In this document: positions 30,032 through 32,496 of the stretch, piece by piece
How positions within the stretch are numbered: the stretch's first letter is position 1
Layout of the letters: every line of letters starts with the position of its first letter
The notes under the pieces: generated by a model
The model's database searches: none
What the model was told of the DNA's origin: nothing
Seen by the model: only the letters and a program-made list of their open reading frames with translations
Program-made: the position numbers and the translations under genes
Assembly: GCA_021802545.1 (NCBI GenBank)
Contig: JAJZRS010000023.1
Span: 1 to 49,040, forward strand
DNA from: Pseudomonadota bacterium
GTDB lineage: Bacteria > Pseudomonadota > Gammaproteobacteria > Burkholderiales > JABEVD01
Reading direction: 5' to 3'
DNA length: 49,040 nt

Positions 30032-31101
30032 AGGTCATTCAACGCTATCTCGCCAGACAGATTTTTGCGAGCACCTTGCTGGTATTTTCGGCGCTGCTCG
30101 TGCTGTTCACTTTCCTCGATCTCATTCATGAGCTGAACGACATCGGGATAGGCAATTACCATCTGCTCTACGCTTTCGCCTACGTGCTGCTCGGCATTCC
30201 GGGACATGTCTACGAACTGTTTCCCATTGCCGCGTTGATCGGCACCATTTTCGCGCTTTCCCATCTCGGAGCGAATTCGGAGATCACCGTGATGCGCGTC
30301 TCGGGCATGTCGAGCACGGACATGGCCGGATTTCTCTTCAAGATCGGCCTGGTTTTCGTCGCGCTGACCTTCGTTTTCGGCGAAGTGCTGGCGCCCATGA
30401 GCGATGCGGCAGCCCAGAAGCTCAGGCTCAAGGCGACGAAGAGCGTGGTCGCGCAGGCATTCAGGTCGGGGCTATGGGTCAAGGACGAGGCCAGCTTCAT
30501 CAATGTGCGCGAAGTGCTGCCCGATGCAACGCTTATGCACGTGCGGGTGTTCGAATTCGACGCGAGGCACGAGCTCAAGTCGATCAGCTTTGCCAGGGAA
30601 GGCACCTACAAGGGCAACAATCTGTGGATGCTGTCGGGCGTGGTCAGGACGAATTTCGGCAGCGGCGGGGTCACCGTCTCGAGCATTCCGGACTACATGT
30701 GGAAATCGGTGCTGACGCCAGACCTGCTCAGCGTGCTGCTGATTTTTCCAGAGCACATGTCCATCCTGACATTGCACCATTACATCGATCATCTGGTTGA
30801 AAACAGGCAGCAGGCGACGCGCTACCAGATCGCTTTCTGGACGAAGTTCGTCTATCCGTTTGCCGTGCTCGTGATGATGCTGATCGCGCTGCCTTTCGCG
30901 TACCACAGGCGGCGCCAGGGCGGAATCAGCGCCAAGATCGTGACAGGCATCATGATCGGCCTGGTGTTCTACCTGATGAACCAGCTTTCCGCGCGCATCG
31001 GCCTCATCAACGACTGGCCGCCTTTCATGAGCGCAGCCATGCCGACGATGGCCTTCTTTATTTTGGCTGTGGCAACGCTGTGGTGGGTTGAGCGGCGCTA
31101 G
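30028..31101 (+). CDS. lptG: LPS export permease LptG
   Basis: Partner of LptF in the inner-membrane LPS extractor. It has 357 residues and the same six-segment plus periplasmic jellyroll layout. MKVIQRYLARQIFASTLLVF and GANSEITVMRVSGMS are family hallmarks. GAGAAG precedes the ATG. The last 44 bases overlap the convergent DUF3106 gene, the longest tail overlap in the window. Confidence 0.95.
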   Translation: MKVIQRYLARQIFASTLLVFSALLVLFTFLDLIHELNDIGIGNYHLLYAFAYVLLGIPGHVYELFPIAALIGTIFALSHLGANSEITVMRVSGMSSTDMAGFLFKIGLVFVALTFVFGEVLAPMSDAAAQKLRLKATKSVVAQAFRSGLWVKDEASFINVREVLPDATLMHVRVFEFDARHELKSISFAREGTYKGNNLWMLSGVVRTNFGSGGVTVSSIPDYMWKSVLTPDLLSVLLIFPEHMSILTLHHYIDHLVENRQQATRYQIAFWTKFVYPFAVLVMMLIALPFAYHRRRQGGISAKIVTGIMIGLVFYLMNQLSARIGLINDWPPFMSAAMPTMAFFILAVATLWWVERR

Positions 31102-31492
31102 CTGGAAGCGGCCGGCGGCGCTTGGTCCCCTCGAATTGCCTGTATCTCAGCCATTTTTGCCTGACCGCGCGGCGCTCTTCCGGGGGGAGCTTCTTGAGGT
31201 TCCTGAAATTTTGCCTCGCTTGCATGCGCTCTTCGGGCGTGAGCTTGCTCCATTCGGCAAGCCTGGACTGAATACGCTTTTGCTGGATCGGGGAAAGCTG
31301 GGGGAAGCGCCTGGCCACCCCGAGAAGCTTCTTTTTCTGGAATTCGGGGAACTGGTTCCATTGTCCGGCGAGCGGCGCGAGAACGGCGCGCTGCTGCGGA
31401 CTCAGCTGATCCCATTGCGGCATTTTCTGCGCCGCGGCGAGAAGGGGTAAAAGGAGCAGAAGCGAAATTACCGATCTGAACGTTTTAGCCAT
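31058..31492 (-). CDS. DUF3106 family secreted protein with 18-residue repeats
   Basis: Predicted periplasmic protein of 144 residues: a signal peptide or anchor at about 1-21 (SLLLLLPLLAAA), then an all-helical basic body and a Pro-rich tail. Residues 26-115 divide exactly into five 18-residue units: QWDQLSPQQRAVLAPLAG, QWNQFPEFQKKKLLGVAR, RFPQLSPIQQKRIQSRLA, EWSKLTPEERMQARQNFR, NLKKLPPEERRAVRQKWL. The recurring L-S/T-P-E/Q-x-R motif recalls the LTxxQ motifs of periplasmic stress sensors such as CpxP and Spy, though homology is not shown. It overlaps the DUF3619 gene by 25 bases. A periplasmic sensor or chaperone role for the upstream sigma factor system is a hypothesis. Confidence 0.85.
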   Translation of the reverse strand: MAKTFRSVISLLLLLPLLAAAQKMPQWDQLSPQQRAVLAPLAGQWNQFPEFQKKKLLGVARRFPQLSPIQQKRIQSRLAEWSKLTPEERMQARQNFRNLKKLPPEERRAVRQKWLRYRQFEGTKRRRPLPASAAQPTTALPQPK

Positions 31493-31824
31493 GAATCGAA
31501 AAATTTCTGATCAGTGTAGGCGGGGACGGGCAGATCGTCCGAAAGCAGGGCTGCATCGTCATTCGCATCCGGCGCAGGGCTTTCGTTTTTCATCGTGCCC
31601 CAGTAGAGGATGGCGCACAGTCCCAGGATGAGTGCTGCAGTGGGCAGCCAAACGCTGATCCTTGGGTGATGGAAGTGGAACAGGCCGTGCCCCTCGATGG
31701 CAAGTGCATGCGCGCTGTATCGGGAAAGCGCGTTTTTCCGCGCAGCCTGCAGGTCTTCGAGCGTCTTTTCGTCGATTCTTTCGAGCCCTGCATCAAGATA
31801 TGCCTTTATTTTTTCTGAGTTCAC
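31468..31824 (-). CDS. DUF3619 family single-span membrane protein
   Basis: Protein of 118 residues: an N-terminal helical cytoplasmic part (1-55), one membrane helix at about 57-76 (ISVWLPTAALILGLCAILYW) and an acidic periplasmic tail. A histidine cluster, GHGLFHFHH at 45-53, lies just before the membrane. The topology and its position directly after a sigma factor gene (four-base overlap) resemble an anti-sigma factor. No recognised anti-sigma domain is evident, so this is inference. The gene is conserved next to this sigma factor in betaproteobacteria. Confidence 0.85.
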   Translation of the reverse strand: MNSEKIKAYLDAGLERIDEKTLEDLQAARKNALSRYSAHALAIEGHGLFHFHHPRISVWLPTAALILGLCAILYWGTMKNESPAPDANDDAALLSDDLPVPAYTDQKFFDSWLKRSDR

Positions 31825-32375
31825 AATTCAATCCCCTTGGATTTCAGGAATGCTGCGATGGCATGCGTGGCCCTGGAACAATGCGTTTTCACGCTCCCCT
31901 CGGAGCAGCCCATCACCGCCGCCGTTTCGGCGACATCCATCTCTTCCCAATAACGCAGCAGGAAGGCTTGGCGTTGACGCGCGGGCAAAGATTCTATGGC
32001 CTGCTCGATATGCTTGACGACCTGCGAGCGCTCGAGCATTTCCATAGGGCCATCGGCGGGCAGCGTCTCGCGCGTGTCGAGCAATTCGAGGGGATCTGTG
32101 TCTTCTTCGAGGCTGAACGAAGAGAGGATCGTCGTCCAGAGCGTTCTGACCTTCTGTCTGCGGAAATAATCTTTGATCGCATTTTGCAAAATGCGCTGAA
32201 AAAGCATGGGGAATTCTTCGGCAGGCCTGCCGGAATATTTCTCGGCAAGCTTCAGCATCGCATCCTGGACGACGTCTAGCGCGCCATGCTCGTCCCGCAC
32301 CGCGTAAACGGCCTGCTTGAAGGCGCGCCGCTCAATGTTGGACAAGAACAGGGAGAGTTCCTGATAGGTGGCCAG
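31821..32375 (-). CDS. ECF-like sigma-70 family RNA polymerase sigma factor
   Basis: Alternative sigma factor of 184 residues with the proposed start. Region 2 contains ALDVVQDAMLKLAEKY and QRILQNAIKDYFRRQKVR. Region 4 has the helix-turn-helix VAETAAVMGCSEGSVKTHCS. No ATG lies upstream of the conserved ERRAFKQAVYAVRDEHGALD. TTG 32345 would cut the N-terminus. CTG 32375 gives MATYQELSLFLSNIERRAF, like other members of this group, and has AAGGG eight bases before it. Target promoters are unknown. Its own leader is AT-rich, with TAAAAT boxes but no clear -35. It heads a three-gene operon with DUF3619 and DUF3106. Confidence 0.88.
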   Translation of the reverse strand: MATYQELSLFLSNIERRAFKQAVYAVRDEHGALDVVQDAMLKLAEKYSGRPAEEFPMLFQRILQNAIKDYFRRQKVRTLWTTILSSFSLEEDTDPLELLDTRETLPADGPMEMLERSQVVKHIEQAIESLPARQRQAFLLRYWEEMDVAETAAVMGCSEGSVKTHCSRATHAIAAFLKSKGIEL

Positions 32376-32467
32376 CTTTTCAACCCTTGTAGCGTTTCAT
32401 CATTGGACCCATTTTAGCAATTTTTCATTTTAATCAGTGCATTTTTTTCCTAGCGATTCTGTCGGAC

Positions 32468-32496
32468 TTGACCAAAAGCGTGGCAAACGTTACTGT
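32468..32496 (+). promoter_or_regulatory. Probable ilvB operon promoter
   Basis: TTGACC at 32468-32473 (five of six) and TACTGT at 32491-32496 (three of six) are spaced by 17 bases, with the start near 32503 and a leader of about 34 bases. I saw no branched-chain-rich leader peptide or attenuator hairpin in this short leader, so classical attenuation looks unlikely. Confidence 0.45.

Follow-up and report, generated by a model that had tools for sequence, protein, structure and literature searches.

What controls the extracytoplasmic function (ECF) sigma factor encoded in a stretch of 49,040 nucleotides from a Pseudomonadota bacterium (assembly GCA_021802545.1, contig JAJZRS010000023.1, positions 1 to 49,040; class Gammaproteobacteria, order Burkholderiales in GTDB)? 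In this stretch, called the window below, the sigma gene overlaps a gene for a DUF3619 protein, which in turn overlaps a gene for a DUF3106 protein. A preliminary description, made from the letters alone, had suggested that DUF3619 restrains the sigma factor and that DUF3106 senses an envelope signal. According to the comparisons reported here, it is highly probable that the three genes form a three-part envelope-signalling switch, in which the sigma factor is held by DUF3619 as its anti-sigma factor and DUF3106 is the periplasmic partner. The genes and their main parts are as follows:

31821–32375, minus strand: ECF sigma factor gene, 184 residues from a CTG start (NF006550, 268.5 bits, cut-off 173; Sigma70_r2 and r4)
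32151–32324, minus strand: sigma region 2 (PF04542, residues 18–75)
31869–32009, minus strand: sigma region 4 (PF08281, residues 123–169)
31821–31824, no strand assigned: overlap of the sigma stop and the DUF3619 start (4 nt, GTGA)
31468–31824, minus strand: DUF3619 gene, 118 residues, proposed membrane anti-sigma factor (PF12279, 73.5 bits, cut-off 22.2)
31058–31492, minus strand: DUF3106 gene, 144 residues, exported helical protein, proposed co-regulator (PF11304, 107 bits, cut-off 24.3, residues 27–126)

The three overlapping genes were found in the order and at the coordinates first described, all on the minus strand, with overlaps of 4 nt and of 25 nt (31468–31492, between DUF3619 and DUF3106). 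The sigma factor carries regions 2 and 4 only and matches NF006550 above its cut-off, which places it in the ECF sigma factors (group 4); region 3 had no match among its Pfam rows at E ≤ 1. For comparison, 264 loci were reduced to 259 with sigma and DUF3619 on one strand and then to 231 distinct betaproteobacterial pairs (L058, L171, L209, L229 and L239 are outside this set). Order and strand of the trio are kept in 229 of them, the remaining two being without DUF3106. The overlap of DUF3619 start (ATG, GTG or TTG, the one nearest to the sigma stop) and sigma stop is exactly 4 nt in 186 of the 231.

Kinship to a system studied by experiment is provided by the sigma factor. Of the 18 plasmid records that it matches, the best encodes an Acinetobacter baumannii sigma factor (34.5% identity, E 6e-24), and identity to SigAb is about 35% over 175 residues. 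The matched locus reads sigma, a 106-residue protein and DUF3106 (38.1 bits, cut-off 24.3; profile Prob 91), and it fits sigAb-aabA-aabB of PMC12153292 by gene order, overlaps, sizes and topology, not by locus tag. Three of the plasmid-collection matches (H1, H3 and H4) are Acinetobacter records of 3.7–4.1 million bases and look like chromosomes. A quick sigma tree of 66 rows (13 of the 231 betaproteobacterial loci used; L282 and L290 left out) contains a branch with a starred SH-aLRT (approximate likelihood ratio test) value of 95; 57 family rows including SigAb, together with one very long outgroup row (L331), stand on one side and the other 8 of the 9 outgroup rows on the opposite side. SigAb nests inside a wider family of the form sigma – small membrane protein – DUF3106.

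In that Acinetobacter system, anti-sigma activity of both partner proteins has been shown by others (PMC12153292, also for what follows). Overexpression of AabA, AabB or both lowers SigAb activity in Acinetobacter; in E. coli it is lowered by AabA plus AabB, by AabB alone and by the cytoplasmic domain of AabA alone. The modelled AabA-SigAb contact resembles that of CnrY with CnrH, and SigAb responds to copper. SigAb is called Acinetobacter-specific there, in a comparison that spans gamma-proteobacterial orders. The preliminary description had called the module possibly undescribed, which is correct only in part, an Acinetobacter member having been published in 2025; the module is a new branch of a kind known so far from one genus. 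The two branches share the order of genes, the overlaps, the topology, a related sigma factor and a related third protein. AabA differs from DUF3619 in having neither the RLxxARxxAL motif nor a W-containing tail; no DUF3619 model matches it, and within the Acinetobacter stretch seen there are no ilvI or lptG neighbours.

The family extends well outside the order of the window. Of 185 genomes of the class, counting that of the window, 49 contain a DUF3106 match, which passes the cut-off in 47. The 54 loci fetched from beyond the order comprise the A. baumannii record but not the locus of the window. In 4 of them the profile built here finds no DUF3106, 5 have no sigma gene on the same strand, and 45 carry sigma and a middle protein directly upstream; this amounts to 45 of the 50 profile-recognised DUF3106 loci having a sigma factor and a small membrane protein in that place. 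All 45 middle proteins contain a hydrophobic stretch of 15 residues; 31 match the DUF3619 profile built here (E<1e-3), 11 show no such match, and the remaining 3 are marked by an H..C..C motif. In profile-profile comparison 15 gamma middle proteins align with DUF3619 (Prob 99, E 8e-18), and PF12279 matches 14 of the 15 at E ≤ 1 (best 2.6e-7); by these alignments they are homologous to DUF3619.

The three proteins with the motif (L315, L319 and L322) begin with a zinc-finger anti-sigma-type domain and end with a periplasmic tail DL(D/E)FYxWLA. In L319 the zf-HC2 domain scores 22.8 bits, over the cut-off of 22.2, and the alignment of L315 with the gamma DUF3619 profile (A4) begins at the pre-membrane helix and reaches the tail (Prob 97, E 2e-11). 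When a profile of the three proteins was compared with PDB, the only rows at E ≤ 1 were two ChrR anti-sigma chains, both weak (E 0.16–0.18); for L319 alone ChrR also came first, again weakly (E 0.10). Genome G321 has the module twice, once with a middle protein of DUF3619 type (L276) and once with one of zinc-finger type (L315).

An anti-sigma-like zinc-finger domain that stands where DUF3619 has its N-terminal half is the best sequence evidence that this half does the same job. Most class I anti-sigma factors have a membrane span after the cytoplasmic part. DUF3619 would resemble this class (ChrR, RsiW, RseA) in possessing a cytoplasmic anti-sigma part, and 3 of its 45 relatives beyond the order carry the H..C..C domain. 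The last helix of class I domains contacts sigma region 2 (PMC7406223). The domain swap also suggests that the pre-membrane helix RLxxARxxAL of DUF3619 corresponds to this last helix. Together with the experiments on the related sigAb-aabA-aabB operon (PMC12153292, as above), the swap supports the restraint of sigma by DUF3619 that was first proposed. For the sensing role first given to DUF3106, the findings go as far as its conservation, its probable export and the lowering of SigAb activity by its Acinetobacter relative AabB.

Inheritance of the three genes is nearly always joint. Of 240 genomes of the order, 175 have DUF3619 (above the cut-off in 174), 177 have DUF3106 and 176 have the NF006550 sigma factor above its cut-off. 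All three occur in 171 genomes, none in 59 and a part in 10 (the sigma list for this tally was picked by hand, best E <1e-50, and comprises the same 176). The frequent separation in relatives that had been named beforehand as damaging to the proposal is thus not seen. At least four of the ten partial genomes are not real losses of DUF3619 or sigma: G219 has an assembly gap over sigma, G012 contains a diverged DUF3619-like gene, and in G009 and G102, which have no Pfam match to DUF3619, an iterated profile of our own finds one (L175, L176). G129 gives a borderline DUF3619 match (E 0.001), G070 and G187 are without DUF3106, and G050, G139 and G237 have a DUF3106 match without the other two.

The topology of DUF3619 is consistent with a protein placed on both sides of the inner membrane. 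The following parts are predicted:

31696–31818, minus strand: cytoplasmic helices 3–15 and 19–43 of DUF3619 (model; conserved L10, L25, R29, A32)
31588–31650, minus strand: membrane span, helix 59–79 (model and hydropathy)
31486–31563, minus strand: periplasmic tail, residues 88–113 (D90, L94, P99, A102, D105, F109 and W112 conserved in 231 loci)

The single membrane span of the preliminary description was recovered as the hydrophobic helix 59–79 of the model, and the net charge is more positive on the N-terminal side of the most hydrophobic stretch in 229 of the 231 loci. A crude hydropathy cut gives one span in 181 loci, none in 49 and two in 1. The model of DUF3619 (75 sequences, pLDDT 76.6, pTM 0.32) has short helices after the membrane helix. 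DUF3106 is modelled as entirely helical (66 sequences, pLDDT 86.2, pTM 0.63), and a hydrophobic signal-like stretch precedes its domain in 212 of 229 loci. In G252, G284, G286, G404 and G424 a second DUF3106 match lies directly beside the first, and the domain seems to be repeated in some DUF3106 proteins. PDB sequence searches with the DUF3619 and DUF3106 profiles returned weak rows (best E 0.22 and 0.039, respectively). In the searchable literature, outside which most subscription journals lie, nothing mentioning DUF3619 and nothing mentioning DUF3106 was found.

Several observations weigh against the proposed switch. As the preliminary description had noted, DUF3619 has no recognisable anti-sigma domain: no class I domain matches the window protein at E ≤ 1 in Pfam, and no Pfam anti-sigma domain appears in the 75 members among the best 25 of 34 families, so that DUF3619 proper differs in this from the class I proteins. 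The zinc-finger assignment is uneven, with zf-HC2 at 18.1 bits in L315 (cut-off 22.2) and no match in L322. The DUF3619 model has no Foldseek match at E ≤ 10, leaving nothing to realign; the DUF3106 model has 12 weak ones at E ≤ 10 and 0 at 0.001, with a best VIA-align Z of 3.9 (CnrX, CpxP and Spy are not among these matches, which excludes nothing). Direct comparison of DUF3619 with AabA gives Prob 11, and that of the gamma profile with AabA Prob 1. A promoter of SigAb type (GTCAAC, 16–18 nt, CGTT) is absent from the window within one mismatch. Loci L155 and L170 are without DUF3106; an open reading frame (ORF) of ATP-binding cassette transporter type, read by eye, follows DUF3619 there. Loci L209 and L239 keep an intact sigma gene with neither DUF3619 nor DUF3106 after it, and restraint is therefore not always needed. 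In both, an RDD-like ORF lies directly after sigma, a natural joint loss of the two presumed regulators.

Covariation also singles out no contact between sigma and DUF3619. In mean-field direct coupling analysis of 229 concatenated gene triples (effective number 187), the fraction of sigma pairs above Z 3 is 0.0108 with the cytoplasmic half of DUF3619, 0.0090 with the tail, 0.0090 with the span region and 0.0079 with DUF3106. For DUF3106 it is 0.0127 with the DUF3619 tail, 0.0118 with the span region and 0.0077 with the cytoplasmic half; covarying pairs at the end of DUF3619 and the start of DUF3106 probably reflect the overlapping DNA.

The link from AabA to DUF3619 passes through one genome. 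A search with AabA matches G248 at an E of 0.0019, calculated for one genome where 369 were searched, a further point against; one other genome gave 0.0096. Weak alone, the G248 match gains credibility from its position on the middle gene of that module; for that single pair BLASTP gives E 1e-9. The same middle protein aligns with the DUF3619 profile (Prob 87, E 4e-6), with only 14.7 bits in the Pfam DUF3619 model (cut-off 22.2). Similarity to AabA lies at its end and similarity to DUF3619 at its start, so that it could be a bridge between the two.

On sequence evidence and by analogy with AabA and AabB, DUF3619 is most likely a streamlined membrane anti-sigma factor with DUF3106 as its periplasmic partner. 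As a single-pass protein, DUF3619 would keep the ECF sigma factor inactive at the inner membrane, where its N-terminal amphipathic helices could grip sigma in the cytoplasm. The pre-membrane helix probably acts as the last class I helix does, covering sigma region 2. On the periplasmic side, DUF3106 probably grips the conserved tail of DUF3619 (LPxxAYxDxGFxxWL) and would stabilise or switch the anti-sigma factor; an envelope signal would break the arrangement of DUF3619 and DUF3106 and set sigma free. The ratio of the proteins is probably set in translation, by a weak CTG behind a Shine-Dalgarno sequence for sigma and an ATG or GTG overlapping the sigma stop for the anti-sigma factor. The start of the sigma gene is marked by two features:

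32373–32375, minus strand: CTG start codon of the sigma gene (no ATG, GTG or TTG back to the in-frame upstream stop)
32384–32388, minus strand: Shine-Dalgarno-like AAGGG, 8 nt before the CTG (read from the sequence)

The end coordinate first given for the sigma gene, 32375, implies a CTG start; this was accepted because no ATG, GTG or TTG lies between it and the in-frame upstream stop and CTG is the majority start in relatives. An upstream ATGATG (32398–32403) was rejected as the start, since it lies in another reading frame. At 218 betaproteobacterial loci (13 of 231 were not anchorable) the codon aligned with the Met of MATDKELSDFL is CTG in 156, ATG in 34, TTG in 16, GTG in 6 and another in 6. 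CTG is the only leucine codon at this position, while at the leucine columns 6 and 10 codons further on all six leucine codons are in use. In 81 of the 156 CTG loci an in-frame stop lies upstream with no ATG, GTG or TTG in between; most of the remainder would allow a longer frame that begins at a canonical codon. CTG starts occur in 30 of 43 coded families and are the sole start in 26, with at least 12 changes between CTG and other starts on a FastTree of sigma.

A Shine-Dalgarno match of at least 4 nt stands in place at 105 of the 156 CTG loci, compared with 27% of 1820 internal CTG codons, 16% of 19457 upstream positions and 5 of 34 ATG-start sigma loci. The 128 non-redundant CTG loci show a purine peak at −12 to −9. 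On these transcripts DUF3619 has, at the −4 position, ATG in 165, GTG in 27 and CTG in 0 of 196 in-frame cases. As a control, the start of ilvI was read in the same way: ATG precedes the motif in 51 of 59 readable loci, and the other 8 have no start codon there.

In other orders, 34 loci could be anchored and 11 further ones could not. The aligned sigma codon is CTG in 15 and TTG in 1; in 18 there is no start codon at this place, and their starts evidently lie elsewhere. Unlike the window, SigAb has a codon other than CTG at the aligned position. For the middle gene, CTG was seen at the −4 position in 2 of 44 loci (45 less one, frame unchecked). Given the conservation of the codon, its Shine-Dalgarno support and its presence in other orders, the sigma gene most likely does start at CTG, and has long done so. 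In the searchable literature as delimited above, none of the papers listed, judged by title and the opening of the abstract, concerns a conserved CTG start in a bacterial sigma gene.

A weak start on the activator combined with a strong, coupled start on the repressor suggests a part of the circuit that keeps sigma below its repressor. Somewhat less likely than not is the fuller idea of a working circuit part, in which selection, acting in most betaproteobacterial carriers and in some from other orders, would hold the activator to the weakest NTG start and the anti-sigma factor to a strong one coupled in translation; the repressor would then always outnumber sigma, and relaxed start-codon discrimination (e.g., shortage of initiation factor 3) would raise sigma. 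The infC gene has an AUU start, and in a comparable manner the sigma regulon would, if this idea is true, be wired to the fidelity of translation initiation.

Transcription of the operon appears to begin from a promoter of another type than that of SigAb:

32411–32419, minus strand: extended −10 element TGCTAAAAT, probably the operon's housekeeping promoter (sequence match)

Of 213 loci, 109 have the extended −10 pattern TGNTANNAT (TGnTAnnAT) in the sense direction in the 250 nt upstream, where shuffles give 8.2 and the antisense direction 15; at the locus of the window (L001) there is 1 match, with 0.45 expected by chance. Two generic ECF-type promoter patterns are not enriched upstream of the 213 loci. 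Basal expression of the operon thus looks housekeeping-driven. In contrast to the autoregulated promoter of SigAb (GTCAAC/CGTT), an exact SigAb-type promoter is found in just 4 of the 213 betaproteobacterial loci (0 of 20 shuffled sets). L143 and L147, of one genus, both have it; L032 has it and L036, of the same genus as L032, does not, so that the L032 copy may be a chance match. Autoregulation, a usual mark of such switches, is unsupported in the window because no such promoter lies there within one mismatch. GGTCAAG, the strongest upstream motif, was considered as a SigAb-type −35 element and rejected, since anchoring put the conservation on its other side, as the −35 (TTGACC) of the divergent ilvI. 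A probable ilvI housekeeping promoter is placed at 32468–32495 on the plus strand (TTGACC, 16 nt, TTACTG); many loci conserve this −35, which could be mistaken for a sigma-gene motif.

The trio is flanked by a divergent acetolactate synthase gene (NF005409, 1078.8 bits) and a convergent lptG (TIGR04408, 381.3 bits), and the genome of the window contains one DUF3619 match. Among the 229 complete loci, an ilvI-type ORF cluster lies upstream in at least 158, an RDD-type cluster directly downstream in at least 131 and a convergent lptG-type cluster downstream in at least 139. These counts are lower bounds, many loci being short, and the clusters are named from one member or from the window.

The layout of the module could also be read as that of a metal-sensing switch like CnrH-CnrY-CnrX of Cupriavidus metallidurans pMOL28, in which DUF3106 would bind metal as CnrX does. 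Both systems combine an ECF sigma factor, a single-span anti-sigma factor with a short helical cytoplasmic part and an exported helical protein (PMC7406223 and general background), and SigAb responds to copper, as cited above. Of the analogy drawn in the preliminary description this three-part layout stands; the gene order differs (Y-X-H, against sigma-DUF3619-DUF3106 here) and no sequence kinship was detected. CnrY (PF17524) and CnrX (PF13801) belong to families distinct from DUF3619 and DUF3106, and as single sequences they reach Prob 0.5 against DUF3619 and Prob 2.7 against the DUF3106 profile, respectively. Weak matches to Metal_resist (PF13801) in 18 of 66 DUF3106 members (best 3.9e-4) and to LTXXQ in 10 of 66 (best 0.002) are poor evidence, because TetR_C_24 matches more members in the same scan (29 of 66, best 2.8e-5); the window DUF3106 protein has no PF13801 match at E ≤ 1. 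A metal switch of this kind is accordingly considered unlikely.

It is very improbable that DUF3619, rather than inhibiting sigma, binds it to present or stabilise it, in the manner of a membrane adaptor or an activator. The inhibition measured so far is that of AabA, and the loci that keep sigma without DUF3619 and DUF3106 (L209 and L239) indicate that sigma alone is not lethal; yet the related AabA and its cytoplasmic fragment inhibit SigAb (PMC12153292, as above), and the corresponding place in relatives is taken by a zinc-finger domain of anti-sigma-like kind. Control of sigma mainly through its own weak CTG start, with DUF3619 and DUF3106 doing another envelope job beside lptFG, could draw on the conservation of the CTG, the housekeeping-type promoter and the convergent lptG-type neighbour. 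It is scarcely credible in view of the near-perfect co-inheritance of both genes with sigma and their overlap with it, in other orders as well, and of the same Acinetobacter experiments.

If the three genes are the envelope-signalling switch proposed here, DUF3619 and DUF3106 would gain a common role as an anti-sigma pair in Betaproteobacteria and many other Gammaproteobacteria (in the sense of GTDB), and a system published as Acinetobacter-specific would become a single branch of a widely distributed family, for which the domain swap supplies evidence of its own. The module gives a clearer case for an anti-sigma factor than the sequence of the window could alone, and adds to it an unexpected conserved CTG start. 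On a regulator, such a start is a rare and directly testable case of a maintained non-canonical start codon.

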